42,214 nucleotides of DNA from Spirochaetaceae bacterium (GTDB lineage: Bacteria > Spirochaetota > Spirochaetia > DSM-2461): positions 1 through 42,214 of the forward strand of contig JADGDJ010000013.1 in the NCBI GenBank assembly GCA_016744925.1, given 5' to 3'. Of this stretch, positions 6,569 through 42,214 are shown piece by piece. Both the position numbers and the translations under genes were made by a program. Position 1 is the first letter of the stretch. Each line of letters begins with the position of its first letter. Below the pieces are notes generated by a model, which saw nothing but the letters and a program-made list of their open reading frames with translations, did not search any database and had not been told where the DNA came from.

Positions 6569-6593
6569 ATGGTTCAAGCAGGAGTGTTGCTCA

Positions 6594-6989
6594 ATGAAAG
6601 ATATCCCAGGAATCGATGAAAACGGCAATTCAAAGAATGGGTCCTTTAAGGTGTTTTTCAAGAATGGCCTTGTCTCTTGTCAAGGTGAATTCGACAACGG
6701 AAAAAAATCGGGAAACTGGAAATACTTTCTCAATAATGGCCAGTTGCAATCATCCGGTAACTATAAGAATGGGAAGATTGTTGGTCGGTGGGAATGGTTC
6801 TACAAAAGTGGCAGACCTAGGGGAACGGGCGGCTTCGATGATGAAGAGAAGAAGCACGGTGAATGGAAGCGATATCATACCAACGGCCAGATCTGGGACG
6901 AAGGTCTCTTTGAAAACGGCAAAAAGAAGGGCACTTGGAAGACTTACGACGAAACGGGCAAGATCATAAAAACCCAAATCTTTAAGTAG
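6594..6989 (+). CDS. MORN-variant repeat protein
   Basis: A 131-residue protein made of about five repeats of the type NGxLxSxGxFxNGKKxGxWKYF: FKNGLVSCQGEFDNGKKSGNWKYF, LNNGQLQSSGNYKNGKIVGRWEWF, YKSGRPRGTGGF..., HTNGQIWDEGLFENGKKKGTWKTY. These match the MORN_2 repeats of YwqK-like proteins, some described as antitoxin partners. No signal peptide and no catalytic domain are seen; it is probably a binding or scaffold protein. CAGGAG lies ten bases before the ATG. Its base composition is visibly more GC-rich than the flanking cassette genes, which suggests a separate origin. Confidence 0.8.
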   Translation: MKDIPGIDENGNSKNGSFKVFFKNGLVSCQGEFDNGKKSGNWKYFLNNGQLQSSGNYKNGKIVGRWEWFYKSGRPRGTGGFDDEEKKHGEWKRYHTNGQIWDEGLFENGKKKGTWKTYDETGKIIKTQIFK

Positions 6990-7009
6990 TTTAGTAGCTC
7001 CATACCAAA

Positions 7010-7025
7010 ACTCCATCCATGGCGT
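7010..7025. repeat. RTCCNT-cap hairpin between cassette genes
   Basis: AC-t-CCA-TCCA-TGG-c-GT: an AC/GT pair, one mismatch, then CCA/TGG around TCCA. It lies after the MORN gene without an attC next to it, a hint that two cassettes fused here. Confidence 0.45.
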
Positions 7026-7055
7026 GGCAATAAAAAAAGGATTTAAAAAACTCTT

Positions 7056-7262
7056 ATGGATAATTATTTCAGAACTTTTATTTTAGCCTTGGCTGTTGCA
7101 TTATTCTCTATTGCAGCTGCTCAATTTAGAATGGTCTTTTTTAAGCGTAAAACATTACAAGATGTTTTATCAGATCCCAAAACTTATATAACTGGGACTT
7201 TGGGTATTATTCTTTATATATTCTATCAATACTTAATCAATCAGACGATACATCATTTATAG
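7056..7262 (+). CDS. Small two-helix membrane protein, unknown
   Basis: A 68-residue protein with two hydrophobic segments, TFILALAVALFSIAAAQF at about residues 8-25 and TGTLGIILYIFYQYLI at about 47-62, joined by a basic loop (FFKRKTLQDVLSDPKTY). I do not recognise a family. AAGGA lies about 14 bases upstream, which is a long spacing. Codon use is AT-rich like the other cassette genes. Last gene of the three-gene cassette, followed by a strong capped hairpin and attC H. Confidence 0.6.
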   Translation: MDNYFRTFILALAVALFSIAAAQFRMVFFKRKTLQDVLSDPKTYITGTLGIILYIFYQYLINQTIHHL

Positions 7263-7316
7263 TATATTTTCGAATTCAATAATATTCGTAGATTACTAGG
7301 TGTATTGATATCAATA

Positions 7317-7344
7317 TTTCCAAATACATCCTTGTATTTGGAAA
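7317..7344. repeat. RTCCNT-cap hairpin, cassette-end type
   Basis: A 12-pair perfect stem (TTTCCAAATACA / TGTATTTGGAAA) around TCCT. It lies 28 bp before attC H and 55 bp after the small membrane protein. Confidence 0.75.
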
Positions 7345-7371
7345 AGCTTGCAACAAAGCGCTATAAACGTC

Positions 7372-7520
7372 CTATAACAGTAAATATACGCTGCACCTTC
7401 GGCTTGGGCTTCGCCATATTTTTCTCTGTGAGAATTATTGCTTTTGAGGTTATACTTCAAAAAAGTAGACTAAGTTTGTTTTTGAAACATTTCTGAGATT
7501 ATGAAGCAACGATGTTAAAA
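7372..7520 (+). repeat. attC site H (long form, damaged right end)
   Basis: Left core CTATAAC (7372-7378), internal GTTATAC at 7449-7455, then the same extra module as in sites A and C as far as GCAACGATG. The right-hand arm and the GCCAGTCCTTCGG segment are missing; the site runs into GTTAAAA at 7514-7520 directly before the next gene. A deletion or an alternative recombination point would explain this. Confidence 0.7.
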
Positions 7521-7538
7521 TTGAAATTGGAGGAATGA

Positions 7539-7946
7539 ATGGAAGATGAAAATGTGAAACGGAAAATCGAATCATATCCCGAAGATTCCAAATTACTTGC
7601 AATTAAAATCAAATCAATTATATATGAAACTGCCATACAAGAGGGTATTCATAAAATAGAAGAAAGTCTGAAGTGGGGAGAACCAAGTTTTAAGGCTCAA
7701 GGTGGTAGTCCAATACGAATGGACTGGCAGGCAAATACTCCCGACAAGTTTTATATTTTTTTTAATTGTAATACTAATTTAATAGAAACTTTCAGAGAGC
7801 TATATGGTTCTGTGCTTAAATTTGAAGGAAACCGTGCAATTGTATTGAACCTCTCTGAGAAAATACCTGAACAGATTCTACATCATTGCATTTCTTTGGC
7901 ACTTCGTTATCATAAATTAAAAAAAAGACCTTTACTAGGAGCGTAA
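7539..7946 (+). CDS. DUF1801 (YdhG/YjbR-like) domain protein
   Basis: A 135-residue protein of the DUF1801 type: IHKIEESLKWGEPSFKAQGGSPIRMDW, FYIFFNCNTNLIETFRELYG, LKFEGNRAIVLNLSEKIPEQILHHCISLALRYHKLKK. Family members are small cytoplasmic proteins without a settled enzymatic role; some relatives have been proposed to bind iron. GGAGG lies five bases before the ATG and eight bases after the presumed recombination core, so the cassette has almost no leader. Confidence 0.75.
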   Translation: MEDENVKRKIESYPEDSKLLAIKIKSIIYETAIQEGIHKIEESLKWGEPSFKAQGGSPIRMDWQANTPDKFYIFFNCNTNLIETFRELYGSVLKFEGNRAIVLNLSEKIPEQILHHCISLALRYHKLKKRPLLGA

Positions 7947-7962
7947 TAATACCAAGTACGTC

Positions 7963-8052
7963 GCATAACAAGAAATATGTACTCCTCTGTGCTTCGGGCT
8001 TTGCCCCATTGGCGTCGTTCCTCAGCCTACGTCATATATGGAAATGGTAAGC
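7963..8052 (+). repeat. attC site I (degenerate right core)
   Basis: GCATAAC at 7963-7969, then AGAAATATGTACTCC and the interior CCCCATTGGCGTCGTTCCTCAGCC shared with sites D and E. The right end reads GGTAAGC instead of GTTATGC and the right arm is decayed. Last recognisable site of the array. Confidence 0.7.
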
Positions 8053-8102
8053 TAAATTCCTCATAGGGGGGGTGCGGACAAAAACCTATACAATAAAGGA
8101 TT

Positions 8103-8246
8103 TTGTTCATGTATTCCTATGAAGATCGACTTAGGGCCGTAATGCTCTACATTAAATATGACTGCTGTAATGCAAATACCATTCGTGAACTTGGTTATCC
8201 GTCAAGAAAGATGCTCAGTCACTGGTATAAAGAGTATACTAAATTG
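8103..8246 (+). pseudogene. IS3-type transposase OrfA fragment
   Basis: The encoded MYSYEDRLRAVMLYIKYD...TIRELGYPSRKMLSHWYKEY is the N-terminal helix-turn-helix of an IS3-family (IS150-like) transposase OrfA. The match stops at about 8246 and the frame ends at 8291; the rest of OrfA and all of OrfB are missing. The start codon is ATG at 8103 or 8109. GGGGGGTGCGGAC at 8067-8079 may be the old left terminus. It lies next to the degenerate attC, so IS insertion and later deletion may have ended the array here. Confidence 0.75.
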
Positions 8247-8283
8247 GGAGAGCTCCTACGGAACTTTCAAAAAATACTGCGAA

Positions 8284-8505
8284 ATGAATGAATCAGAATA
8301 TGTTCTGTATCGGAATAAATTAGAGAAGAAAGAACGTGTCTTTGATATTTACAGAGATGACATTTTAAGTATTTACCCTGTCAATAATGGTAAGATTTAT
8401 GGTTCATCCCTATTCGATGTCTTAGAAGAGAAATACGATACTTTGCTATACCATATAAAAGATTCAACAAATGATAAAGTTTCTATAATTCAATTGGTGG
8501 TATAA
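8284..8505 (+). CDS. Hypothetical protein, possibly truncated
   Basis: A 73-residue frame, MNESEYVLYRNKLEKKERVFDIYRDDILSIYP..., ending IIQLVV. The open frame continues upstream into the transposase remnant in a different frame from the transposase. It may be the surviving 3' end of a gene cut by the IS element. No family recognised, no ribosome site visible. The GNAT gene starts 27 bp downstream. Confidence 0.4.
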   Translation: MNESEYVLYRNKLEKKERVFDIYRDDILSIYPVNNGKIYGSSLFDVLEEKYDTLLYHIKDSTNDKVSIIQLVV

Positions 8506-8532
8506 TGATACCAACAGATAGAAAGAGGGTTT

Positions 8533-9030
8533 ATGATAACGCAAGTAGATTTTCTCAATCGGAATAAAGTAGAAAATATTTTAGACATAATACGATTATC
8601 CAATGAAACTGTTGCGAAGAATTTTGGTTTAACCAGAGAAAATGCTCCAGGACATACATCATTTTTAACAAAAGAAAAACTCCTGACAAATAAAGAAAAT
8701 AAATCTTTGTACTGCCTTGAAAATGGTACAGATATATATGGTTGTGTTATTCTCGAAAAACCTGCTAACAGTGAAAATGGATTTTTTTTAGAAAACCTGT
8801 CAGTTCTGCCTGAGTTTAGACATAAGGGATATGGAAAGATCTTAGTGGAACACATAATTGATACAGTAAAAAAATTGAAGGGGCAGAAGATTTCTATTGG
8901 GCTAATTGATGAAAATGAAATATTAAAAAAGTGGTATTTGGCTCTGGGATTTGAAATTGTTGGCACTAAAAAATTCAAACATCTACCATTTACTGTATGT
9001 TTTATGGATTTTAAACTGTTACAAAAATAG
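8533..9030 (+). CDS. GNAT-family N-acetyltransferase
   Basis: A 165-residue GNAT protein. The acetyl-CoA-binding motif A is clear: FLENLSVLPEFRHKGYGKILVEHIIDTVKKL with the R/Q-x-x-G-x-G/A type loop (RHKGYG), followed by motif B in NEILKKWYLALGFEIVGTKKF. The acceptor is unknown; small metabolites are likely. AGAGGG precedes the ATG. AT-rich, and plausibly another cassette gene whose own attC has decayed. Confidence 0.88.
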   Translation: MITQVDFLNRNKVENILDIIRLSNETVAKNFGLTRENAPGHTSFLTKEKLLTNKENKSLYCLENGTDIYGCVILEKPANSENGFFLENLSVLPEFRHKGYGKILVEHIIDTVKKLKGQKISIGLIDENEILKKWYLALGFEIVGTKKFKHLPFTVCFMDFKLLQK

Positions 9031-9211
9031 AGAGTTCTTTATTTCTAATTTAAAAATATTTTTTCTAAAACTGTTTTAAAACGACATCTATGAAATTTTA
9101 GAAAATTGGAACGAATTTGTCGAATTCATAACTTAACAAGTTTTCCCTGACTTCATTTCATTGCGCCCTAATATCCAGAATATTATCCTTGAGATATTTA
9201 GATTTTATTTG

Positions 9212-9233
9212 TTCTCGACATCCTTGGCTCGAA
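9212..9233. repeat. RTCCNT-cap hairpin, cassette-start type
   Basis: The 274-bp gap from 9031 to 9304 holds no gene. It contains this element: CA-TCCT-TG, then G/C and outer TTC/GAA pairing in the CTCG...GCTCG context seen in other start-type copies. ACTTAACAAG near 9130 may be what remains of an attC left core. Confidence 0.5.
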
Positions 9234-9304
9234 ATGTAAGTCAGCAAGAACTATCATGAAAATAAGTGACAGATTCATTATTCTGATATTCATGGAGAAC
9301 AGAA

Positions 9305-10156
9305 GTGGGTAATATTCAACGTATATACAAAGCAGTCAACTTTATAGAAAATAATCTAACCAGAAAAATCGACTTAAAGATGATTGCATCTGAATCATCA
9401 CTTTCCGAGTACCATTTCCACAGACTTTTTCATCTTATTGTTGGAGAGTCTCCGGGAATATACATAAGGAAAAGGAAGTTATACCAAGCTGCACTTAGAT
9501 TATCAAGATCGAACGATCGAATAATTGATGTTGCGTTAGATACCGGTTATCAATCACCAGAAGCCTTTTCCAGGGCTTTTACAAATTTATTTGGTTTTAG
9601 TCCCAAAGAAATTAAGTTGAATGAAAACCATTTAATACGTTATGCAAAACCTCCTCTATCTATCCAAAAATTAAATCACATCCATGAAGGAGTTAGTATG
9701 GAACCGGAAATCGTTACAAAAAAAGAAATAAAATTGGTGGGAGTTGTATATTATGGAGCAAATAAGTCAGATGAAATCCCTGTATTCTGGAAAGAACATT
9801 TTTCTGAAATCAGTTCAATTACGACAAGAATTGGAGATAGTTGTTTCGGGTTTTGTTTTCATAATTCAGATTATTTAACTAAAGGATTATTTCATTATAT
9901 GCCTTCTGTTGAAGTCTCAAATTTTTCTGAAATCCCTATAACTGCAGTAGCAAAAATAGTTCCTGAGCATCAATATGCTATTTTTACCCATAATAAAAAT
10001 GCCGCAAAATTAGGAGAAACTTATGAATATATTCATGGGACATGGTTTCCAAATAGGAAATATATTCAAAATGACACATTTGATTTTGAATACTATACAG
10101 AAGATGAAAATGGAAAAGATATAATTCAAATCTTTATTCCTATCACTCTGAAATAA
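9305..10156 (+). CDS. AraC-family regulator with GyrI-like effector domain
   Basis: A 283-residue protein. Residues 1-105 form an AraC double helix-turn-helix (IDLKMIASESSLSEYHFHRLFHLIVGESPGIYIRKRKLYQAA, then IIDVALDTGYQSPEAFSRAFTNLFGFSPKEIK). Residues about 130-283 form a GyrI/BacT-like effector-binding domain (IVTKKEIKLVGVVYYG... FEYYTEDENGKDIIQIFIPI). This Rob/SoxS-plus-GyrI layout is typical of regulators that sense lipophilic drugs and switch on efflux. The start is GTG with GGAGAAC upstream. Flanked by capped hairpins on both sides, so it looks like an old cassette although no attC remains. Confidence 0.9.
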   Translation: MGNIQRIYKAVNFIENNLTRKIDLKMIASESSLSEYHFHRLFHLIVGESPGIYIRKRKLYQAALRLSRSNDRIIDVALDTGYQSPEAFSRAFTNLFGFSPKEIKLNENHLIRYAKPPLSIQKLNHIHEGVSMEPEIVTKKEIKLVGVVYYGANKSDEIPVFWKEHFSEISSITTRIGDSCFGFCFHNSDYLTKGLFHYMPSVEVSNFSEIPITAVAKIVPEHQYAIFTHNKNAAKLGETYEYIHGTWFPNRKYIQNDTFDFEYYTEDENGKDIIQIFIPITLK

Positions 10157-10165
10157 TATAAAAAA

Positions 10166-10187
10166 GGAAGTACATCCCTGTACTTCC
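10166..10187. repeat. RTCCNT-cap hairpin, cassette-end type
   Basis: A nine-pair stem (GGAAGTACA / TGTACTTCC) around TCCC, nine bases after the AraC stop codon. Rightmost copy of the element in the window. Confidence 0.72.
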
Positions 10188-10206
10188 GGATACGAGATAC
10201 AAACTC

Positions 10207-10335
10207 ATAAAATCCTTTAAACAGAAAGGTCTTGAAAAGTTATTCATCAATGGAAGCAAAAAAGGGGTTCAGCGAGAGCAAGTTAAGAAGTTAGCACGTA
10301 TTCTGGATAGTCTAGAAGCATCCATCACAGATCTA
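10207..10335 (+). pseudogene. higB fragment lacking its start codon
   Basis: The frame reads IKSFKQKGLEKLFINGSKKGVQ, then KKLARILDSLEASIT, which matches residues 2-43 of the intact HigB at 4280 nearly word for word at both DNA and protein level. The ATG of the intact copy is CTC here, and similarity stops after SIT. It is a relic of a second higB cassette. Confidence 0.85.
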
Positions 10336-10344
10336 CTAGAGGAT

Positions 10345-10668
10345 TTGATTGGATCTGAATTTCATGAGGAATGGATATTTATTGTAAATGAATTAACCAC
10401 ACCAGTTCTAAAACTTGATATCGTTATGAAAGGACACTGGTTAGTTAATGGGAAACGGAGTCCTCGGTTTTACAAAGATATAAATAGTGCCATGTTTGAC
10501 AATTTACTTGTCGCTTTTAATTGTTTTTTTTTGACAAATCAAAAAAAGAATACATTTATAGGATTATTACCGCTGATTTTATTGGATCCCGGGAGACATT
10601 CTTTTCTCCACGTCCTTTTTATGAAGGAAGTTTTTGGAAAAAAGTGGGCACCTTGCCCATATGACTGA
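10345..10668 (+). CDS. Doubtful frame joined to the higB fragment
   Basis: A 107-residue frame from a TTG, in frame with the higB fragment. It reads IGSEFHEEWIFIVNELTTPVLKLDIVMKGHWLVNGKRSPRFYKD and ends at 10668. No family recognised. The GSEFHEEW...GKRSPRFY part looks protein-like; the later part (CFFLTNQKKN...) looks like translated non-coding sequence. No ribosome site. Probably the remnant of a gene fused to the higB relic by deletion. The rest of the gap to 10759 shows nothing more. Confidence 0.3.
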   Translation: MIGSEFHEEWIFIVNELTTPVLKLDIVMKGHWLVNGKRSPRFYKDINSAMFDNLLVAFNCFFLTNQKKNTFIGLLPLILLDPGRHSFLHVLFMKEVFGKKWAPCPYD

Positions 10669-10759
10669 TCTATTGCTCTTAAGGAAGAATGCGAGCTTTA
10701 CAGAACCGGCATAACAGTTTATAAAAATCAGAAGACAATTGTTCCAAAGGATATATCGA

Positions 10760-11629
10760 ATGACGTCAAACACAAAACTCTCTTATACGGATAAATTACC
10801 TCTCACCTGTACACGGACCGGAACCTGCTGTCATGGGAAAATGGTTCGCTTAAACCCATGGGAACTGGCAAAACTGGCAGAGGCAAAGGGAATCACCCCA
10901 AAAGAGTTTCGTAATTTGTATTGCGATTTCGGGGGCATACAATTGCGTTTTGATGGAGATCCCGGCTGGAAAGATCTGGCCTCATGCAGTCAGTATAAGC
11001 CTGGTTTTGGCTGTAAAGTCCATTCCGGTAGACCTCTGGTCTGTCGCTTATATCCTCTGGGTCGTCAGAAACAAGGTGAAAAAAAACACTACATCCATCA
11101 GGGGAATGATTTCCCCTGTCTCGAGGGATGTCCCGATGTTGTTAAACTCCCCTCGATGACGGTCTCTCAATACATTGAAGGTCAGGGAGCACAGGATTAT
11201 GAGGCGGTACAGGATAGCTATCTGGAATTGATGCAGGATATTGCCGACGGAGCCTTTTCTCTCCTTCTGGAAAGTGGCTTGTCAGAATCAGGAGATAAAA
11301 AAACACTTCCCATGTGGAGAAAGATGGGTGATGAAAAACCGGAAGCTCTGTCAAAAAGGCTCGGAGTCCAATGGATTGACCGGCTTATGCTGCACGAGTT
11401 ATCTGACCACAGCAACGATTACCTATCCTTTACAGAAAGCCACTTTGCTTCTCTTCAATCGGCTTTTGAAGAAAAACTCAGTAAGCTTGAATCTCTCGAT
11501 GATTATAGCGAGGCATCAGTATTATTGATGGGGCTCGCCCTGCATCTCAGTCGCGGACTAGGTGCAGAACCATCAGACCTGGCCACCCATTGGATTGCTA
11601 CGGCCAAAACTCACGGTGCCTCGGAATAA
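10760..11629 (+). CDS. YkgJ-family cysteine-cluster protein
   Basis: A 289-residue protein with the Zn/Fe-chelating YkgJ pattern: CTRTGTCCHGKMVRLNPWE near residue 17, then CSQYKPGFGCKVHSGRPLVCRLYPLG and a later CLEGCP. Such proteins carry eight or so conserved cysteines thought to bind an Fe-S or zinc site; the reaction is unknown. The C-terminal half is helical and not conserved that I can tell. The frame is open from a TTG at 10739, but the ATG at 10760 has AAAGGA eight bases upstream and is preferred. First gene beyond the cassette region, with clearly higher GC content. Confidence 0.82.
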   Translation: MTSNTKLSYTDKLPLTCTRTGTCCHGKMVRLNPWELAKLAEAKGITPKEFRNLYCDFGGIQLRFDGDPGWKDLASCSQYKPGFGCKVHSGRPLVCRLYPLGRQKQGEKKHYIHQGNDFPCLEGCPDVVKLPSMTVSQYIEGQGAQDYEAVQDSYLELMQDIADGAFSLLLESGLSESGDKKTLPMWRKMGDEKPEALSKRLGVQWIDRLMLHELSDHSNDYLSFTESHFASLQSAFEEKLSKLESLDDYSEASVLLMGLALHLSRGLGAEPSDLATHWIATAKTHGASE

Positions 11630-14005: not shown

Positions 14006-15462
14006 TCAGCATCTTCCATTCCTTCTACAGCAAGCTCTCTCTGATTTTTCTACTTCTCATACTCATGCTCGGTGCAGGAAGTCTGGTGATTGCTTTTAAT
14101 GCGGCGGATCACCTTTTTGATGAAGTGGAACAGACTTTGAATAGAGAGTATGCCTCCAGTATGGCTGTGGAACTGCAGCCCATGGTCAAAGAGGGGATCA
14201 ACGAGGAACAAATAAAAGAAACCATTAACTATATGATGGTTCTCAACCCCATGGTAGAGATATATCTGCTCGACAGAAATGGTGAGGTTCTGGCCTATTT
14301 CACAGGTCCCGGAGATAAGGTAATCCGTCACAAAGTAGACCTTAAACCGGTAAAAGAATTTATCATGAGCGGCGGGAAACTGGCTATTAACGGAGATGAT
14401 CCCCGTACGGAAAATGAGAAAAAGCCTTTCTCTGCTGCCCCTATGAGAATTGGAAATCAGCAGGGATATATCTATATCATATTGAGAGGACAGAGTTACG
14501 ACAAATCACACCAGATGATACGCAGCAGCTATTATCTGAAAACCGGACTGATTACATTTATACTGGCATTTCTGGCAACACTCATAGCGGGGCTCTCACT
14601 CTTCTCCCTTCTCACAAGGCGATTGAGGATTCTCGGTTCCGCTGTGAAAGCCTATGAACCGGAAAAAGAAAACAGACCTGTACAAATCGGAGGTTGCGAC
14701 GAATTATCCCTCCTGGCAGAGACCTTTAATGATATGGCGATTTCTATCAACAGGGGTATAAATGAGCTTCACAATGCAGAGCAACAGAGAAGCGACTTAA
14801 TCGCCAATATTTCACACGACCTGAGAAGCCCTCTCACATCGATCAGAGGACATTTGGAAACGATTCTGCTCAAAGAGGAAACTCTAACCAACGAGGTAAA
14901 AAGGGAATATCTGGAAATTAGCCTGAAAAATGTTTCCAGCTTTCAAAATCTTGTTGAGGAATTATTTGAACTGGCCAGACTGGAGGGGAAAGTGATCCAG
15001 CCTGCATCGGAATCTTTTCAAATAGCCTAACTATCACAAGATGTACTTCTAAAGCTGAAACCCCTGGCTGAAAAGAAACAAATTAATTTATCAATGATCC
15101 CACCGGAGATACTTCCCTCAGTCACAGGCGATATAGCCATGATAGAACGGGTGCTCACCAATATACTGGAAAATGCTCTGGCTCATACTCAGACAGACGG
15201 ATCGGTATTGCTCTCTCTTAATTGTGATTCAGAATCAGTCCACATCAGCATTAGTGATACGGGAGTGGGGATCTCCCCCGAAGATATCCCCCACATATTC
15301 GAGAGGTTCTACAGGGCTGATAAAAGCCGTGACAGAAGAACACCCGGAACCGGCCTGGGTCTCGCCATTGCAAAAGAGATCGTCCTGCTGCATAAGGGGC
15401 AGATTGAAGTTTTCAGCACAGAGGGTTCAGGTACCCTTTTCCGGATTACACTTCCCTTTTAA
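14002..15462 (+). pseudogene. Sensor histidine kinase split by an in-frame stop
   Basis: Together the interval encodes a complete kinase: membrane segment near residues 12-32, periplasmic sensor of about 150 residues, second membrane segment at about 183-203, HAMP, phosphoacceptor His272 in LIANISHDLRSPLTSIRGH, then N-box NILENALAHT, DTGVGISPEDIPHIFERFYRADKS and GTGLGLAIAK. A TAA at 15028-15030 interrupts it in the linker between the dimerisation and ATPase domains (FQIA-stop-LSQDVLLKLKPLAEKK); reading continues in the same frame on both sides. A GAA or CAA codon one base away would restore it. Without its ATPase domain the kinase cannot phosphorylate the regulator encoded upstream, unless the two halves are made separately. 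Confidence 0.88.
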
Positions 15463-15919
15463 GGGGAAGAACTGATTTGATGGAATCGAGAATGGGAACG
15501 TATCCGGTACAGCGGCATATATTGCCCTCCAGTGCTGTTTTTATTTCCTCTTCCGAGGGATGGGGATTCCTGTCGAGCAGAGCCTTGGTACTCATGAGCA
15601 CTCCGGGAGTGCAGTAACCGCATTGACTGCCACCATGGTCAATAAAGGCCTGTTGTAAGGCCGACAGTGTATTATTTTCAGCCAGGTTCTCGATAGTCTC
15701 GACCTCTTTGCCATTACACTGAGCGGCTAAAATAAGGCAGGAACAAACCGCCTCTCCATCGAGGATCACAGTACAGGCTCCGCATTCACCGACAGCGCAG
15801 CCCTCCTTGGTTCCCTTTAAGTTCAGATCATCCCGGAGTAGATCCAGAAGCCTGTGAGAGCCGGAGACGGTCAGCTCATGTGTTTTATTATTCACCTTTA
15901 TGGTTATTTCGGTCATCAT
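15446..15919 (-). CDS. [2Fe-2S] subunit of xanthine-dehydrogenase-type hydroxylase
   Basis: A 157-residue protein with both cluster motifs of the family: the plant-ferredoxin type CAVGECGACTVILDGEAVCSC near residue 40, and the helical-domain pair CGYCTPG and CRCTGY near residues 100-136. It passes electrons from the molybdenum site to FAD. Its start overlaps the end of the preceding Moco/FAD gene by 32 bp, so the two are translationally coupled. Its 3' end overlaps the convergent kinase gene by 17 bp. Confidence 0.95.
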   Translation of the reverse strand: MMTEITIKVNNKTHELTVSGSHRLLDLLRDDLNLKGTKEGCAVGECGACTVILDGEAVCSCLILAAQCNGKEVETIENLAENNTLSALQQAFIDHGGSQCGYCTPGVLMSTKALLDRNPHPSEEEIKTALEGNICRCTGYVPILDSIKSVLPLKREV

Positions 15920-18900
15920 TGATCTCCTCGATCAGGGACTTCAGATTATCTCTGAATATATTGAGAAATACAGGCTTTTTATATATACCGGACCACCTGG
16001 TGCCGATGGCCTCTTCAATTTTCTGTGACAGAAACATTTCGGCTTCCAACACAGTGTTTCCCTTCAGTTCCTCTCCCGTAAAAATCTTCTCGATTTCCTT
16101 CAGTCTGGTCGGGTAGGAGAACAAAGCTCCATCGACGATGCGGCACTCCTCCACACGGAGATGCTCATCCATCTTGAAAATCATGCTGAGACTGACTCTG
16201 GTTATATTGAGAGTATTTCTCCTGCCGAGTTTTTCATAGGTCCAAAACCATTTTCCATCGGGTTTAGGCAGGATAACAGAATGTATAAGTTCATCTTCTT
16301 CCAGAGAGGTTTTATATCCCCCTGTGATGAAATCTCCCAGGGGAATTTTCCTATCGGAATTTTCCGAAACAATCCTGAGCACTGCCCCGTAAATAAGCAA
16401 AGGGGGTATAGAATCTCCGCAGGGCGCTGCGTTGGCAAGATTTCCGCCAATAGTAGCTCTATTTCTAATCTGATTTGAGCCTGTGAGAATCGCGGCTTCA
16501 GCCAATATTGGAAAGAGGGTTTTCACAATCGCGTGATTGTGAAGAGTATTGAAATTCACAGCTGATCCTATGATCAATTCATTATCTGTATCACTTATAC
16601 CTGAGAGTTCACTGAGCGAAGAAATATCGACAAATGTCTGATGTTCCCTGGTCAATCTCGATTGAACCAAGAGATCGGTTCCTCCGGCCAGAGGAGTGGC
16701 AGAAGGAGTTGAGACCATAACGAGAGCTTCCTTTAAATTGTCCGGATTGAGCAATGTGATTGAACTGAGTGAGGGAATTTGTTTTTTCCCAGAATCCTTA
16801 TGAGCCTGCTCACTCTGGCGGGCCGGTTTTTTAAGATTGTAGCCCAGATAGACCTGCTCCATGGTTAACGGGAGGTTGTAGGGCCGATTTCCTGTTGCGA
16901 AAAAGAGTGCGTTTGCCAGAGCCCCGGCAATTATTTCATTAGTCGGTTCGCCGACACTCTTGGCACCGAAAGGTCCGTATTTATCGGGATTCTCGATAAT
17001 AATAGGATCTATGTCTCCTATGTCCTTTATAGTCGGCAGAAGATAAGCATCAAAATTCTCGCTTTTGACCATTCCACCCTGCATATTGAAGTCTTCGAGA
17101 ATAGCATATCCCATCCCCTGAACGACACCTCCATAAATCTGCCCCTCCACACCAACCTTGTGTATGGCTCTGCCCACATCATGAGCTGCAGTCACGCGGA
17201 GGACCTCCATCTTCCCCGTATAGGTATCGACCCGGATCTCAGCGACCTGGCAGCCGTAGACATAAGTGAAATAGGCATCGCCCTGACCGGTTTCATCATC
17301 GAAATCGACATCGGGACCCTGAAAATATCCAATGGCGGACAGGTTGACACCGGCAGCTACAGCTTTCTCCACTGCCGAGTAAAAACTTATGAACCGGTTA
17401 CAATCTTTAAGAGACCTGATGATCCCCTCGTCCCAGCTTGTTTCATCAGACCGATTGACTTCAAGATCCTTTTTTATCACTTGAAAGATCCTGTCTTTGA
17501 GTATTTCCGCGGCGTCCTTGACGGCGGATCCTCCGGTCAGAGTCGATCGGGATGCCACTGTCGGTCCCCCGTCGGGAGTACAGGACGTCGGACTGTCCAT
17601 CATATAAACTTTTTCCAGAGGAATTCCCAGAACCTCACAGGCAATTATTGAAAATGCGGTCTGCAGCCCCGAACCGTTTTCACAAACACCACTTAAAAGA
17701 TTCACACTTCCATCGGGATTGACAGTTAAAACAGCACTAGATATGTCCACTCCTTCCGATCCGAGTGAACAGCCCCTGAGACTGTCGGCTATGCCTATTC
17801 CATAGCGGTATCGTCCACCATCACTATTCCGACGGGAAAATTCTTTTCGTTTCTCTATAAATCGGGACTTCTCAGCAGTTTCATCCAATGCCTGTATGAG
17901 CGATACTTTGTGATCTTTAAAATGCTGGGATGTGGCTGAACGGCTGTTCTGTCTGAGAGCATTATCCAACCGGATATCTAAAGGAGATAGATCGCAGAAA
18001 GAAGCGATTTCGTCAATGAGAGATTCATGGGCAAAGGTAATCTGGGGAGAACCGAATCCTCTCAATGCCGATGTGTAACAGTTATTCGTATAGACTCCAC
18101 GAATTCTCGTTTTCACATTTTCTATTTCGTAGGGACCCGTCGCCTGGACCAGTGCTCTCCAGGTTACGAAAAATGTCTGAAAGGAATAGGCTCCGCTGTC
18201 GGCAATTATATCGATTTCCATGGCTTTGATTTTACCAGCTTTGGAAAATCCCGCTTTGTAATTCATAATGAAGGGATGTCTTTTTGAACTCTCGATGATT
18301 GAATTCTCTCTGGAATAGGTGAATTGCACCGGTCTGCCGGTCATCCGGCACAATAATGCCGCACGGCAGGCGATATGATCTGCGATATCGTCTTTACCGC
18401 CAAAAGAGCCCCCCATAACAGATTTATGCACGTTTATACGACTCATATCCATTTTCAGAAATTGAGAGACAAAACGTCTGACTTTATGAGGATTTTGTAT
18501 GGAACCCAGTATTTCCACGCCCGAGCCCCTCATGTCCGGGACTGCGGTTATAGATTCCGGTTCCATATAAGCATGTTCCTGGAAGGGGGTCGTATACCGC
18601 CGTTCGAGTATATGATCTGATTGCGCAAATCCCTTTGCGACATCGCCTTTAATGAGGGGGTATTCATTGACAATATTGGATTCATATTCTTTGTGGACAA
18701 GCCGCGATAATTCTTTGACAGCCTCCTCAATATCCGTCACAGGTTCAAAAGATTCGTATTCAATTCTGATTGCTCCGGCGGCGGCGATTGCCTGATTCCG
18801 GGTCTCGGCAGCCACTACAGCGACGACATCCCCGATAAAATGAACCTCTTTTCCCGCAATGGGAGCGAAATCCGCCCGTACCGGTCCAATGTACTTATCT

Positions 18901-19109
18901 CCCGGCACATCATCATATAGAGCAATGGCTTTTACTCCATTCATTTCAGATGCTATTGAAACATCGATAGAGAGGATCTTGCCTGCCGGTATATCCGAAT
19001 AGCGGCATACCCCGTGGAGCATGTCCGGTATAGTGATATCATTTCCATATATGGCCCGACCTGTTACCTTTTCAAATCCATCGACACGCCCTTTTCGTTC
19101 ACCTATCAT
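15888..19109 (-). CDS. Fused Moco and FAD subunits of xanthine-dehydrogenase-type hydroxylase
   Basis: A 1073-residue fusion. Residues 1 to about 765 are the molybdopterin-binding subunit: GRVDGFEKVTGRAIYGNDI, FQEHAYMEPE, GGSFGGKDD, ALRGFGSPQ with the substrate-side Arg, QTAFSIIACEVLGIP and GPFGAKSVGEPTNE with the catalytic Glu. After a hydrophilic linker (ARQSEQAHKDSGKKQ), residues about 790-1073 are the FAD subunit: PLAGGTDLLVQ, IRNRATIGGNLANAAPCGDSIPPLL. Order is unusual: most bacteria encode these separately and eukaryotic enzymes run Fe-S, FAD, Moco. The arginine and RGFG motif favour purines or related N-heterocycles over CO, but the substrate is not certain. No maturation factor is in view. 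Confidence 0.93.
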   Translation of the reverse strand: MIGERKGRVDGFEKVTGRAIYGNDITIPDMLHGVCRYSDIPAGKILSIDVSIASEMNGVKAIALYDDVPGDKYIGPVRADFAPIAGKEVHFIGDVVAVVAAETRNQAIAAAGAIRIEYESFEPVTDIEEAVKELSRLVHKEYESNIVNEYPLIKGDVAKGFAQSDHILERRYTTPFQEHAYMEPESITAVPDMRGSGVEILGSIQNPHKVRRFVSQFLKMDMSRINVHKSVMGGSFGGKDDIADHIACRAALLCRMTGRPVQFTYSRENSIIESSKRHPFIMNYKAGFSKAGKIKAMEIDIIADSGAYSFQTFFVTWRALVQATGPYEIENVKTRIRGVYTNNCYTSALRGFGSPQITFAHESLIDEIASFCDLSPLDIRLDNALRQNSRSATSQHFKDHKVSLIQALDETAEKSRFIEKRKEFSRRNSDGGRYRYGIGIADSLRGCSLGSEGVDISSAVLTVNPDGSVNLLSGVCENGSGLQTAFSIIACEVLGIPLEKVYMMDSPTSCTPDGGPTVASRSTLTGGSAVKDAAEILKDRIFQVIKKDLEVNRSDETSWDEGIIRSLKDCNRFISFYSAVEKAVAAGVNLSAIGYFQGPDVDFDDETGQGDAYFTYVYGCQVAEIRVDTYTGKMEVLRVTAAHDVGRAIHKVGVEGQIYGGVVQGMGYAILEDFNMQGGMVKSENFDAYLLPTIKDIGDIDPIIIENPDKYGPFGAKSVGEPTNEIIAGALANALFFATGNRPYNLPLTMEQVYLGYNLKKPARQSEQAHKDSGKKQIPSLSSITLLNPDNLKEALVMVSTPSATPLAGGTDLLVQSRLTREHQTFVDISSLSELSGISDTDNELIIGSAVNFNTLHNHAIVKTLFPILAEAAILTGSNQIRNRATIGGNLANAAPCGDSIPPLLIYGAVLRIVSENSDRKIPLGDFITGGYKTSLEEDELIHSVILPKPDGKWFWTYEKLGRRNTLNITRVSLSMIFKMDEHLRVEECRIVDGALFSYPTRLKEIEKIFTGEELKGNTVLEAEMFLSQKIEEAIGTRWSGIYKKPVFLNIFRDNLKSLIEEINDDRNNHKGE

Positions 19110-37216: not shown

Positions 37217-37474
37217 TGAAAACTCCTTATTTAATCGGACATGCTGTTATAAATAACTAGAACAATTTTTTCTAAGAGTCAATATTTGTCTTATCTTTAC
37301 GCTTTAGATTGAATATGAACGGGAAGTGATGTTTCGCAAACAAGACATAAAAGTGTTGGATTCAATGGGAAACGTCGTGATATACTTCTTTAAATAAAAA
37401 ATATTTCCGAGGTTTTTCATCTAAGAGATCTACATTGATGATCTTATGAGGAAAAATCCTATGGGCTTCAGGGG

Positions 37475-37497
37475 AAACACTGGCGCCTCCCGTGTTT
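37475..37497 (+). promoter_or_regulatory. Leader hairpin before the solute-binding protein gene
   Basis: The 296-bp gap from 37217 to 37512 holds no gene. Just before the ribosome site, AAACAC (37475-37480) pairs with GTGTTT (37492-37497) around TGGCGCCTCCC. Its purine-poor loop could pair with the AAGGAAAA ribosome site or with GGGG at 37471-37474, so translational control is possible. I considered riboswitches, the molybdenum cofactor class among them, but cannot confirm one. Confidence 0.35.
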
Positions 37498-37512
37498 GGA
37501 AAGGAAAAATAA

Positions 37513-38985
37513 CTGAAAAAATTCATATTTACGGCATTCATATTGTGTCTGCATACTGTGTTGTTCTCAGAGCAGTTTTATTATAATCACGAAGCACTTC
37601 AGTCATTGGTTTATAATGCCGGTCTTAGGGAAACGCAAATCTCCAGTCCTTCCGGGTGGTATAGCGGATTTTCATTATTGGAAATTCTCCCCCTTATGGA
37701 AGACGTCTATTCCATGGATATAGAAACATCTGAAGAGTCCTATCACTTTACAGGTGATGACCTGGCGAATGACTGGCCTGATTCCTACCTTATTAAAGAT
37801 CCCGAAAGAAACCATATTATATTTCAGAATGATCTCTATTCAAATGTCACTTCTCTCCATTTTTCAGGTACTCCCATGGATTCCGATGAGCTGGAAATAT
37901 GGCTTTCCTGGGAGGGAATCAAAGAGCTGAAAGATGAGTTAAACCGTTTCAGTATTATTCACAATATCGATATAAAAGCTGTAGAAGTACCCAGACCTGA
38001 ATCTAAACTGATTTCAGTTGTACGGGCCAATGGGAAAGTTCCCGATATCATTATGCTTCAGTCAAGCGCCATAGAGAATCTCGTTCGTACCAGAGCCATT
38101 CAAAACCTTGTAAATATGGATCAAACCGATCTGATAGAACAGGGAAAACTATCATTTACTCTTGATGATAAGCTGTGGGCGGCTCCTTTTTATTTTGATT
38201 CTCAAGTCATATTTTACAATAGAGACCTCGTGAAGAATGACATAGAAAAAAACTGGACTATGGATGATATGGAGAAAATCGCCCGTCTTTTAGACAGCGA
38301 TGCCATACATCCTCTCGCCTGGAACGCCTATTCTTCCAATTGGCTAATCCCTTTTCAGGTATCTTTCGGGAAAAGTGAGCTGATCAATCGTGAGGGGATA
38401 ATCACTGTCGATGATCTACCGACAGAGAAAGCTTTGAATTACATCATTAGTCTTCAAAACCAGAATATACTCGTTCCCATGGAAAGAGATGCTATGGATG
38501 CCCTATTTATCGCCGGCAAAGCGGCCGTGATTATGAGTGGATCTTATGCCATTCCCTATTTTGAATCACTGGGACTGAATTTTGGAGTAGCTCCCTTTCC
38601 CATGAATCAGGACACCGGTCTGCCAGTCTCTCCTCTTCTTGATTTTAAGGCATTCGCCATAACCAGACGCACCGATGCCCCACTGCTGGCGCGAAGAATT
38701 ATCCAATATCTGACATCTTCTGCTGTACAGCAGAGGTTCTGTCCGGCTCTGGCAAAACTGCCTGTCCGCGACGATGTGTTCTCCATTCCGGGAATAAATT
38801 ACGGCTATTTGGAAGTGCTGAAAGATTCGGCAGAAAGGGGTACAGTCATCCCCCCTCTGAATGTCTACAGTATCTATAAAAATAATATGTGGAAACTTCT
38901 CAGATTTGCTCTCTCCGGCAGGATGTCAGTCCGACAGACTTTGGAGCAGGGACAGACTCTGATGAACAATACAATGGAAAATTAG
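37513..38985 (+). CDS. ABC solute-binding protein with fused N-terminal sulfite-oxidase-like domain
   Basis: About 490 residues. The protein needs a CTG start at 37513: this gives the signal peptide (L/M)KKFIFTAFILCLHTVLFSEQ, has AAGGAA eight bases upstream, and a stop lies just before it. The only other choice, TTG at 37543, destroys the signal. Residues about 30-135 (GWYSGFSLLEILPL..., SYHFTGDD, ELEIWLSWEGI) match the repeated domain of the next protein. From about 150 on it is a family-1 (MalE-like) sugar-binding protein: ISVVRANGKVPDIIMLQSSAI, LWAAPFYFDSQVIFYNRDLV, FIAGKAAVIMSGSYAIPYF, ARRIIQYLTSSAVQQRF. The ligand is probably a carbohydrate or polyol. The ABC ATPase is not in the window. 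Confidence 0.85.
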   Translation: MKKFIFTAFILCLHTVLFSEQFYYNHEALQSLVYNAGLRETQISSPSGWYSGFSLLEILPLMEDVYSMDIETSEESYHFTGDDLANDWPDSYLIKDPERNHIIFQNDLYSNVTSLHFSGTPMDSDELEIWLSWEGIKELKDELNRFSIIHNIDIKAVEVPRPESKLISVVRANGKVPDIIMLQSSAIENLVRTRAIQNLVNMDQTDLIEQGKLSFTLDDKLWAAPFYFDSQVIFYNRDLVKNDIEKNWTMDDMEKIARLLDSDAIHPLAWNAYSSNWLIPFQVSFGKSELINREGIITVDDLPTEKALNYIISLQNQNILVPMERDAMDALFIAGKAAVIMSGSYAIPYFESLGLNFGVAPFPMNQDTGLPVSPLLDFKAFAITRRTDAPLLARRIIQYLTSSAVQQRFCPALAKLPVRDDVFSIPGINYGYLEVLKDSAERGTVIPPLNVYSIYKNNMWKLLRFALSGRMSVRQTLEQGQTLMNNTMEN

Positions 38986-39006
38986 TTACAACGAAAGGAG
39001 ATGTAC

Positions 39007-40371
39007 ATGAAAAAGCTGATAAGTACTCTATTAATACTGATATTGTTCTCTATGATAGGATGGGCAACAACAGAGAATCAGGATGTCGATGATGTTTCAG
39101 GTGCGACACCCGAAGGTGTGGGATGGACGATTACTCTTACAGGTGTGCGAAGCGACACTCTGTGGCAGAGTGATGTTGAATTATGGAAAAGTGAGAACCC
39201 TCTAGTATCCATAGAGATGGAACTGGAGAAAAAAGGTGTGACAAACCTCTACAGCGGTGTTCTGCTCAAAGAAATAATAGCCCTTGTTGACGATCCATCG
39301 GGAGCCATGCCTGCTGAATTCAAGAATGACTTGTGGACTGAAGGATACGATGTCACTCTGACTGCTTCCGATGGTTACAGCGCCACATTTAACACAGCTG
39401 AAGTCTCTCCCGAAGATGTTCTTTTTGTTCTTACCATAGACAATGAATCGGTCCCGCCGATGATCGCCGGGAATGTTTCCGGTAAAGCATGGGTTCGCGA
39501 TCTGAGTGAAATAGAATTGAGCCTGGCCCCTGTCGATCTGACAGAAAACAGTTTCATGTTTGAACTGGAGATCAATGGAATAAATGCCGCTTACACTATT
39601 GCGGAACTGGAAGCCATGGATATTTATGTTGAAGACAAGGGAAGTTTTACAAATAGCCACGACAATACAACCGATTCAGTTTACGGAGGAGTCAGACTTG
39701 TAGCTCTTCTCTCTGAACATATGGAAGTAACAGAAGAAACCGCCATAAAAATTATTGCCATGGACGGATATGAGATGAGCTACGGCGGTGATATGCTACT
39801 CGATCAGGCTGATGGAGACTGGATTCTGGCTTTCAAAGAAAACGGAGAGTATATGCCCGAAGATCCCGGTTATATCCGATTGGTAAAAGTGGGTCCACAG
39901 AATCCCAACATCACCGGTCATGTTTCCGCCAGAATGATTCAGAAAATCACTACAGAGGGTAAGCCTTTTGAGAACTTCGAACTGATGATAGTTCAGAATG
40001 ACAAAACAGAAGTATTCGACAGACAGACCATGCAGAGCGGTATTATCACCAATAAAAATAGAGTTTCCTATTACGATAAAAAAAGCGAGATGAACATTGA
40101 GTATATGGGAATATCTCTCTGGAGACTACTCGAAAGACCGACCGGTTACAGAGCAGTGACAATTGAAGCCACAGACGGTTATTCCATAACACTTTCCAAT
40201 GAACAGATCGAATTGAATGATGATGTCATCCTGGCGATGTACACTGGTGATGATGAACTTCTCAGTGATAACGAATGGCCTCTGAGACTTGTATGGGACA
40301 AAGATGCCTCTGTAGTACCCGATGGGATCAAAGCGGTTCGCAACGTTGTTAAAATAACACTGGTATACTGA
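39007..40371 (+). CDS. Exported protein of three sulfite-oxidase-like (Moco-domain) repeats
   Basis: About 454 residues. Signal peptide (KKLISTLLILILFSMIGWA), then three copies of one domain at about 25-170, 175-320 and 325-454. Each has Y-x-G-[VI]-x-L followed by DGY-x-x-x-[FYL]: LYSGVLLKEII and DGYSATF; VYGGVRLVALL and DGYEMSY; EYMGISLWRLL and DGYSITL. A VSGK/VSAR-type late strand and PLRL/YIRL recall the oxidoreductase molybdopterin-binding fold (PF00174). There is no cysteine, so no normal Moco ligand; the fold is likely reused for binding. The ATG at 39001 sits on top of the AAAGGAG site, so 39007 is the start. Lies between binding-protein and permease genes of one operon. Confidence 0.8.
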   Translation: MKKLISTLLILILFSMIGWATTENQDVDDVSGATPEGVGWTITLTGVRSDTLWQSDVELWKSENPLVSIEMELEKKGVTNLYSGVLLKEIIALVDDPSGAMPAEFKNDLWTEGYDVTLTASDGYSATFNTAEVSPEDVLFVLTIDNESVPPMIAGNVSGKAWVRDLSEIELSLAPVDLTENSFMFELEINGINAAYTIAELEAMDIYVEDKGSFTNSHDNTTDSVYGGVRLVALLSEHMEVTEETAIKIIAMDGYEMSYGGDMLLDQADGDWILAFKENGEYMPEDPGYIRLVKVGPQNPNITGHVSARMIQKITTEGKPFENFELMIVQNDKTEVFDRQTMQSGIITNKNRVSYYDKKSEMNIEYMGISLWRLLERPTGYRAVTIEATDGYSITLSNEQIELNDDVILAMYTGDDELLSDNEWPLRLVWDKDASVVPDGIKAVRNVVKITLVY

Positions 40372-40377
40372 TAAATA

Positions 40378-42214
40378 ATGAAAAGGGGTCGAGTTTCGGG
40401 CAGTGATGCTCTTATGGGGATTCCCTTAGTCGTACTGATACTCCTCATAGGTATGGCCCCTTTTCTCACAGCTTTCACCGATAGTTTTTTTCACGACTTC
40501 TACGGTGAACGCTCATTTGCGGGACTTGAAAATTTCCGTTTTATTCTGGGAGATGCGGCATTCCCCTACAGTCTGAACATCACAGTTCTCTGGGCTGTTC
40601 TCAATGTGGGACTGGGATTGATATTCGGATTTCTCCTGGCTCTGAGACTGGTCTCCCGCAGGGGAGAAAAAGGTCATTTGCACCGATTCCTGCTTATCCC
40701 CTGGGGTATTCCCGTCTACATAGCGATTCCTCTGTGGAGATTTTTCCTTCACGGAAATGGAGGAGAATCGATAATAACAAGATTTACGGGGCTGCAGTTC
40801 AATCTGATGATGGATCCTCTGGCAGGATTTTCAGGTTCTCTCATCGTGAGTCTCTGGCTCAGTGTCCCCATTTCCGCTTTTGTCTTTGCCGGACATATGC
40901 GAAAAGTCAGCCGTTCAGTCATTGAAGCCGCCCGGATCGATGGCGCTAACGAGGGGGTCATTGCACTCCACATCTATGTTCCGGAAATTAAAGAAACACT
41001 TTTAGCTATGGGGGTTCTAAGCTTCATAAAGGCTTTCAAAGAGTTCACGCTGGTCTATATGATGACTGCCGGCGGGCCACCGCTGATCAGCGGTATTACA
41101 GAAAGGCATATTGTTGGAGCGACAACGACTCTTGGAGTTTTTCTCTATGAAATTTTCCTGCAGACCAACGACTGGGGGATAAACGCCGCTTATGCTCTGG
41201 TTATGGCAGCCATAATAATCTTTATCATGCTCTTTTGGGTTATGGTAAAAAGAGAAAGCCCTCTCAGATCGTTCCTACTGCTCTCAATACCAGTATTTCT
41301 GATTGGACTGGATCCTATTCTGTTATCATTTGCCGCGGCTTATATCTATGTCGCACTGAAGGATAAAACCGAGCTGAAAATATTTTCGGGAATCGCTGGT
41401 ATGCACTTCTTCTACTCAATGATGATGATAGGAACGAGAGGCTTCCTGAAGGGATTTCATCCGGGAATAGTACTGATTTTACTCATTTTACTGGTCAGGC
41501 GATTCAGAATAAAGAAAGAGGTAGAACGATTTCCCACGGCTCGGGGATTAAGCCTGGGGTCAGGATTGCTCTCTGGATATTTTATTGCCATAACGACTAT
41601 CCTTCTTTTTATGTTGGGATGGATGAGTCTTTCAGGAGTCAGCGCCTGTTATATAGATTCATTTATACCGCCTTATGCCAGTCTGAATAATTTCCTGACC
41701 ATATTCAGAGAAGAGGGGATTCTCAAATATTTTGCCAACACCTTTTTTGTATCTACAACTACTGCCATTCTTCTTCCTCTATTGATATTTCCCGGGGCTG
41801 TTTATTTAAATCGATCGGGAAAAAAAATGACTCTTGCCGTTTTGGGTTTTATTCAGATTATAGGTCTGGCAGGAGGAATGCACTCTTTAATTCCCCTCTA
41901 CAGGATTTTCAGAAGCTTTGGATTGGTGAATACATATGTACCTCTGATTCTGATTTACCTCTATCACGCCATCCCCTTTTCACTCTTTATACTGACAGCG
42001 TACCTGAACACTCTACCGAAATCATTCCGGGACCTGGCGTTAATGGAGGGGATGAATGAAATATCCTACGGTTTCAAAATATTATTACCTCTCTCTCTGC
42101 CCACATTGATAACAGTGGTAATGGCGGCATTCATCTCTGCCTGGAATGGCTTTCAGGCCCCATTGCTCTTTCTCAACGATGAAAATCTCTATACCATAAG
42201 CCTGAAACTCTATA
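40378..42214 (+). CDS. Fused MalF-MalG-type ABC sugar permease (3' end outside window)
   Basis: At least 612 residues in one open frame to the window edge. Residues 1 to about 290 form a MalF/UgpA-like permease with the coupling (EAA) loop EAARIDGANEGVIALHIYVPEI. A linker with two or three extra helices (SFLLLSIPVFLIGLDPILLSFAAAY) follows. A second MalG/UgpE-like permease then carries the loop RDLALMEGMNEISYGFKILLPLSLP. Most organisms encode these two halves separately; here they are one chain. It begins six bases after the previous stop, with no clear ribosome site, suggesting coupling. It imports the solute caught by the protein at 37513. Confidence 0.9.
   Translation, partial: MKRGRVSGSDALMGIPLVVLILLIGMAPFLTAFTDSFFHDFYGERSFAGLENFRFILGDAAFPYSLNITVLWAVLNVGLGLIFGFLLALRLVSRRGEKGHLHRFLLIPWGIPVYIAIPLWRFFLHGNGGESIITRFTGLQFNLMMDPLAGFSGSLIVSLWLSVPISAFVFAGHMRKVSRSVIEAARIDGANEGVIALHIYVPEIKETLLAMGVLSFIKAFKEFTLVYMMTAGGPPLISGITERHIVGATTTLGVFLYEIFLQTNDWGINAAYALVMAAIIIFIMLFWVMVKRESPLRSFLLLSIPVFLIGLDPILLSFAAAYIYVALKDKTELKIFSGIAGMHFFYSMMMIGTRGFLKGFHPGIVLILLILLVRRFRIKKEVERFPTARGLSLGSGLLSGYFIAITTILLFMLGWMSLSGVSACYIDSFIPPYASLNNFLTIFREEGILKYFANTFFVSTTTAILLPLLIFPGAVYLNRSGKKMTLAVLGFIQIIGLAGGMHSLIPLYRIFRSFGLVNTYVPLILIYLYHAIPFSLFILTAYLNTLPKSFRDLALMEGMNEISYGFKILLPLSLPTLITVVMAAFISAWNGFQAPLLFLNDENLYTISLKLY

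Follow-up and report, generated by a model that had tools for sequence, protein, structure and literature searches.

Riboswitch-controlled uptake of vitamins is known, for example that of cobalamin through BtuCDF, a cofactor importer that stands under a riboswitch for the same cofactor and works alongside synthesis or replaces it. In the literature we searched, which lay mostly outside subscription journals, we found no bacterial importer of the molybdenum cofactor (Moco) or of pterins, and a survey of RNA regulons has no uptake category for Moco (PMC3766115). Moco and its intermediates are described as very oxidation-sensitive and are thought to remain protein-bound (PMC9571131, PMC7687042); nematodes are able to use dietary Moco (PMC9793310). 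Here we describe three consecutive genes at the end of a 42,214-nucleotide stretch of Spirochaetaceae DNA (contig JADGDJ010000013.1, referred to as the window), which follow a riboswitch for Moco or the tungsten cofactor (Tuco) and encode a MalE-like binding protein, an exported protein with three repeats of the sulfite oxidase (SUOX) fold, and a one-chain permease. That this operon is an ATP-binding cassette (ABC) importer taking up the tungsten (or molybdenum) pterin cofactor, or just the pterin core of it, is in our view an evenly balanced proposition. It belongs by family to the sugar-type ABC importers, of which it is a variant; BtuCDF is from a different transporter family. It would act like a vitamin importer, and we propose for it the same arrangement, with uptake under the cofactor's own riboswitch beside or in place of synthesis.

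Among described transporters, the MalEFGK-type (CUT1) sugar ABC importers have in common with this operon a MalE-like binding protein and MalF/MalG-like permease sequences. They differ in having separate MalF and MalG proteins, whereas here the permease is one chain, the binding protein carries an additional N-terminal domain, a three-repeat partner protein and a Moco/Tuco riboswitch (RF01055) are present, and no ATPase gene lies in the flanks. TupABC, which stands under RF01055 in the same genomes, is likewise an ABC importer with this riboswitch, but its binding protein and permease are unrelated, and it supplies metal, not pterin. The sulfite oxidase and YedY (MsrP) enzymes share their fold and Pfam family PF00174 with the three-repeat protein; unlike them, the window protein has tandem repeats and lacks a metal-ligating cysteine, a twin-arginine signal and signs of catalysis. 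PruR (PDB 7kos, 7kp2, 7kom, 7rkb) resembles the three-repeat protein in its SUOX fold, its export, the absence of the cysteine ligand and the apparently retained tyrosine of the DGY/NDY site. This single-domain periplasmic protein, whose partner is the signalling protein DcpA, has no metal-binding cysteine. Its ligands are reduced pterins, which Tyr104 contacts; residue 102, an Asn, is replaced by Asp in some groups (PMC13259868). By comparison, the locus described here has three repeats, an ABC importer alongside and a cofactor riboswitch upstream. It has no DcpA-type cyclic di-GMP regulator gene pair, and the ABC importer neighbours the three-repeat gene at all loci.

The operon and its riboswitch

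The three genes fill the final 4.7 kb of the window, all on the + strand, and have the following features (the basis of each is given in brackets).

37393..37522, +: Moco/Tuco riboswitch aptamer RF01055, without helix P3 (cmscan)
37498..37505, +: GGAAAGGA, within the conserved aptamer 3' end; probably the Shine-Dalgarno site for the first gene (sequence)
37513..38985, +: exported binding protein with Sec-type signal peptide, extra N-terminal domain and MalE-like body (open reading frame, Pfam, Foldseek)
37570..37875, +: extra domain at the N terminus of the binding protein, about 100 residues, with repeat-like strand/helix order (AlphaFold model, predicted local distance difference test [pLDDT] mostly 66-93)
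39001..40371, +: exported three-repeat SUOX-fold protein (PF00174 E 4.2e-16, model, alignment)
39088..39108, +: DDVSGAT (sequence)
39127..39528, +: SUOX-fold repeat 1, residues 43-176, DGY 124-126 (model, profile)
39556..39960, +: SUOX-fold repeat 2, residues 186-320, DGY 255-257 (Pfam, model, profile)
39979..40368, +: SUOX-fold repeat 3, residues 327-456, DGY 392-394 (model, profile)
40378..41247, +: MalF-like permease half containing an EAA motif (MalF match of orthologue L004, hydrophobic segments, motif)
41248..41562, +: linker joining the permease halves, about two additional hydrophobic segments (hydropathy)
41563..42213, +: MalG-like half, cut by the contig end (SugB/MalG match of orthologue L004, alignment)

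The source genome, from an uncultured spirochaete, has 4.87 Mb in 413 contigs and is 87% complete; reliance on metagenome-assembled genomes is one of the main weaknesses of the cofactor reading. The window is an entire contig (C363), and therefore there is no sequence past 42214 to read. The importer is present in five of 393 sampled Spirochaetota genomes, spread over four families, and two further genomes came to light when 84,980 species genomes were scanned in a way that detects close relatives only. The resulting seven loci are the window, L003, L004, L011, L012, L013 and L014, all from Spirochaetota, and gene order is identical in every one; in L013 the binding protein is cut by a contig end.

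The riboswitch was identified by cmscan at 37393-37522 with 75.4 bits, above the gathering score of 36 (E 1.1e-17). RF01055 also precedes the importer operon in L003, L004, L011, L012 and L014 (60-79 bits) and is thus seen at 6/6 loci with the upstream region available; L013 was left out of this count because its contig end falls within the first gene. At these six loci the helix P3 columns are empty in the alignments, and the form of RF01055 without P3 is the one associated with Tuco (PMC2408646). Within the sample, RF01055 occurs in 5/5 importer genomes versus 52/393 overall (Fisher p 3e-5), and tungstopterin aldehyde oxidoreductase (AOR) in 5/5 versus 109/393 (p 0.0015); both p values are rough, as the genome counts include relatives.

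Within the conserved 3' end of the aptamer, GGAAAGGA sits 7 nt before a CTG codon at 37513. A similar aptamer end forms the apparent ribosome-binding site at 6/6 importer loci, and at all six the start codon lies within or adjoins the P1 region. The open reading frame of the first gene runs from this CTG to 38985, with a listed start at TTG 37543; the position of the Shine-Dalgarno site and the signal peptide point to CTG 37513 as the probable true start. With the Shine-Dalgarno site inside the aptamer, cofactor binding would hide it, which predicts that the importer operon would be repressed by the cofactor.

The SUOX-fold repeats and the transport proteins

The original prediction was made from the window's sequence and had claimed a MalE-like binding protein with a repeat-like domain fused in front, three tandem cysteine-free repeats with a YedY/sulfite oxidase fold reused as a binding module, and both permease halves in one polypeptide with extra linker helices. 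Its expectation that the three genes stay together holds in all seven genomes found. Pfam, NCBIfam and the fold agree on the MalE-like binding protein; family matches and hydropathy bear out a permease in which MalF and MalG form one chain, with additional hydrophobic segments between them; and PF00174 stretches, model and profile comparison support the three tandem repeats. Foldseek upholds their SUOX fold, so they do not model as the unrelated fold that had been named beforehand as speaking against the prediction. PruR, a cysteine-less SUOX-fold pterin receptor, is a precedent for a reused binding module (PMC13259868). Two claims stood in part: the three-repeat protein is free of cysteine in the window but not in two orthologues, and the domain fused to the binding protein has the Y-x-G-x-x-L motif and the predicted element order of a fourth copy but neither DGY nor a match to PF00174 or the repeat profile.

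PF00174 matches the window's three-repeat protein in three stretches and also matches all seven orthologues. In the predicted structure (pLDDT 77) one strand/helix order occurs three times, and profile comparison between repeats gave 97.5% for 1 versus 3 and 90% for 2 versus 3, with 1 versus 2 weak (E 0.001). Across the 21 repeats of the seven orthologues, A-x-D-G is invariant, the next residue being Tyr or Phe, and Y-x-G-x-x-L is almost fully conserved; Trp 164 (repeat 1) and Trp 432 (repeat 3) are invariant in the orthologue alignment.

Foldseek with the three-repeat protein returned sulfite dehydrogenase, PruR and YedY, with PruR structures (one with neopterin) among the best fold matches, at template modelling scores of 0.65-0.74 by target length. 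When a profile of the 21 repeats was run against all solved chains, PruR 7kos came first (E 3e-4) and PruR 7kom next (0.013), with sulfite oxidases behind. Of the sequence searches of the PDB, only the one with this profile found relatives; those with the window protein, the seven-orthologue profile or L014 found none. The profile alignment places the NDY of PruR, which residue names in PMC13259868 indicate to be residues 102-104, over the DGY of the repeats, such that the Tyr appears kept and the Asn changed to Asp. The position of PruR's pterin-binding Tyr appears to be occupied by the Tyr or Phe of DGY/DGF in 21/21 repeats, and the alignment ends short of the position of its pterin-binding Trp160.

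The window's three-repeat protein contains zero cysteines and hence no metal-ligating one. A CVSCH motif stands ahead of repeat 3 only in the repeat proteins of L013 (9029-10573, - strand) and L014 (9270-10820, - strand), near the expected position of the sulfite oxidase metal-binding cysteine; the other orthologues have Gly at its first Cys position. This motif could bind heme c or supply a ligand to a metal. DDVSGAT, which we take to resemble the flavin-attachment motif of ApbE, is kept as D/A-x-x-S/T-x-A-T in 5/7 orthologues. Most orthologues have a lipobox cysteine, replaced by Trp in the window (39055-39066) and by Phe in L011 (genome G350), where lipid anchoring seems to have been lost. 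The signal peptides of the binding protein and the three-repeat protein have no twin-arginine motif; the three-repeat protein is therefore probably exported unfolded and meets its ligand outside, which would fit ligand capture and not an enzyme loaded in the cytoplasm.

The binding protein matches SBP_bac_8 (E 1.2e-22) and, in Foldseek, a maltotriose-binding protein (E 1e-21). Its N-terminal domain has, in the AlphaFold model, the strand/helix order of the SUOX-fold repeats; ESY replaces DGY, and its Tyr is not conserved among orthologues. No match was found to PF00174, even at E 10, or to the repeat profile, and profile comparison with the repeats was weak. Judging from the model, this domain is likely a degenerate fourth repeat copy.

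The permease is a single chain of 664-690 amino acids in L003, L004, L011 and L012, with the MalG-like half complete in L003, L004 and L011 (full copies of 665-690 residues); the fused chains of L013 and L014 are shorter. No candidate ATPase for the importer was found in the fetched flanks of the seven loci, the rest of the genomes not having been searched. In L003 the next gene overlaps the permease gene by 8 bp and encodes an NTPase, and a convergent MobA-like gene follows.

The proposed ligand and competing explanations

All seven importer genomes encode AORs and a PF00384 enzyme, which in G372 is of the dimethyl sulfoxide (DMSO) reductase family. MoaC, MoaA and MoeA are present in G000, G350, G375, G323 and G393 (the G323 MoaA match is under the family cut-off) and were not found in G372 (95% complete) or G394 (no completeness figure). 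G372 has a single RF01055 copy, before the importer, and the sampled AOR-bearing relatives in its family (G245, G309, G363) have MoaC and no importer. The original prediction, which overlooked the riboswitch, had named a glycan or a cofactor as the ligand. The cofactor option gains weight from the riboswitch and from enzyme-bearing genomes without detected synthesis genes; for a glycan there is no support other than the sugar-type transporter family.

Two other uses of gene content were set aside. MoaE does not separate the genomes, being missing from 5/7, MoaC-bearing ones among them. Divergent AFOR_N proteins without MoaC, mostly from family f12, were put aside as doubtful AORs; many f12 genomes have such a protein and neither MoaC nor the importer, and AFOR_N without MoaC therefore proves nothing alone. 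A cofactor-dependent enzyme seems to be encoded in the window as well: at 15446-19109 on the - strand, a 1073-amino-acid protein and a 157-amino-acid 2Fe-2S protein read as molybdenum hydroxylase subunits of the xanthine dehydrogenase type.

From the computed riboswitch, fold, conservation and gene content we infer a ligand, a hand-over, a shared ATPase and a direction of regulation, as follows. At low intracellular cofactor, the riboswitch would not hide the ribosome-binding site, which would allow synthesis of the three proteins. Sec would export the three-repeat protein in unfolded form, and in most orthologues a lipid would anchor it; outside the membrane it would capture the pterin in PruR-like SUOX-fold pockets. 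The MalE-type binding protein would then receive the ligand, perhaps when the three-repeat protein docks onto the SUOX-like N-terminal domain of its partner. Import would proceed through the fused MalF-MalG permease, powered by a shared ATPase of the CUT1 type whose gene lies elsewhere, and the cofactor would then serve the tungstopterin aldehyde oxidoreductases and the DMSO-reductase-family enzyme. More tentatively, and at somewhat less than even confidence, this could be the first bacterial importer of the tungsten/molybdenum pterin cofactor or its core, with some spirochaetes living as scavengers that have retained their tungstopterin and molybdopterin enzymes, have lost the entire synthesis pathway and capture the cofactor on a surface protein bearing three PruR-like pockets. 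If true, exchange of a pterin cofactor among bacteria would become directly testable through a riboswitch-controlled importer, genomes holding cofactor enzymes without synthesis genes would be explained, and some "molybdopterin-dependent oxidoreductase" annotations without a metal ligand would gain a function.

Several observations weigh against pterin cofactor import. MalE-type proteins are usually sugar binders. Five of the seven importer genomes also make the cofactor, and the association of the importer with an absence of MoaC does not by itself reach significance in the sample (p 0.14). In G000, G350 and G393, moeA, moaA and moaC share one operon behind tupABC, and so one unassembled stretch could explain their absence from G372 or G394, a serious caveat. 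RF01055 is also found upstream of hydrogenase, formate dehydrogenase and aldehyde dehydrogenase operons, and its presence is therefore no proof of a cofactor substrate. Finally, Moco as a whole is probably too large for the PruR pocket (PMC13259868), and the ligand may therefore be a smaller pterin.

An alternative that we hold to be unlikely is that the importer takes up an organic substrate, a sugar derivative or an aldehyde precursor, degraded via tungsten enzymes, with the repeats binding the substrate and the riboswitch matching uptake to cofactor supply. Such a role would account for the sugar-type binding protein and permease and for the enzyme operons (AOR, hydrogenases, aldehyde dehydrogenases) that RF01055 also precedes in this phylum. 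However, a Shine-Dalgarno site inside the aptamer would imply repression when cofactor is plentiful, which is the wrong direction; the AOR gene under RF01055 in the window's genome has instead a separate ribosome-binding site further downstream. Moreover, the proteins most closely related to the repeats are pterin binders, and no conserved catabolic enzymes lie beside the importer.

Less probable again is an unusual tungstate or molybdate importer, even though RF01055 is commonly upstream of molybdate and tungstate transporters (PMC2408646). Elsewhere in the importer genomes, RF01055 controls operons that combine a tungstate importer with moa genes, as well as AOR genes; G000, G350, G375 and G393 each have a TupABC-type importer (named by reading the sequences) under its own separate RF01055 element. 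The binding protein is MalE-like, unlike TupA or ModA, and oxyanion supply alone would be useless to the two genomes in which no pterin pathway was found, G372 and G394. We give slightly less credence still to the three-repeat protein being an envelope redox component (with covalent flavin, and heme in some orthologues) at which the importer's substrate is reduced or protected: the flavin-attachment-like motif near the N terminus of five orthologues, CVSCH in two and a diheme family match (E 1.4e-9, yet far under the family cut-off) speak for it, but neither motif is in all orthologues, whereas the repeats and their DGY/DGF motifs are, and no ApbE or cytochrome partner is conserved alongside.

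Other Moco/Tuco riboswitch loci

RF01055 with P3 lies at 10688-10820 (- strand) of L060 (G231:C65), before genes at 6593-10658 (- strand) for a FecCD-type ABC importer, an NTPase and a flavodoxin-like protein, with MobA divergent. In G231 (99% complete) MoaC and AOR were not found, and a DMSO-reductase-type operon adjoins L060. We considered this FecCD-type importer as a second salvage system and set it aside, since a similar system in G375 adjoins an SBP_bac_11 (oxyanion-type) protein; it is as likely a molybdate importer as a cofactor importer.

In L074 (G071:C69; 2062-7529, - strand), RF01055 is followed by genes for a TonB-dependent receptor, for a protein in which some segments are SUOX-like, and for cytochrome c assembly. 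In G071, which is from another class, an RF01055 element stands upstream of a TonB-dependent receptor and of a 358-residue protein; when 478 open reading frames were compared with the repeat profile, this protein was the sole match outside the orthologues (E 0.0037). This RF01055/TonB locus and the NTPase and MobA-like neighbours in L003 agree weakly with cofactor uptake. Also in L003, a flagellin-like start and an amidohydrolase-like end share a single open frame at 2-1312, possibly an assembly chimera. L077 (G050:C36; 2078-7335, - strand) has RF01055, then a TonB-dependent receptor and, further downstream, a TupA-like binding protein, a layout that suggests an outer-membrane step in tungstate uptake.

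In L061, L075 and L076, RF01055 is upstream of what read as [NiFe] hydrogenase operons, enzymes that do not use this cofactor. In L069, L071, L072 and L056 it is upstream of an aldehyde-dehydrogenase-like gene, of the 1-pyrroline-5-carboxylate dehydrogenase type by reading, which may back up the tungsten aldehyde enzymes without needing the cofactor.

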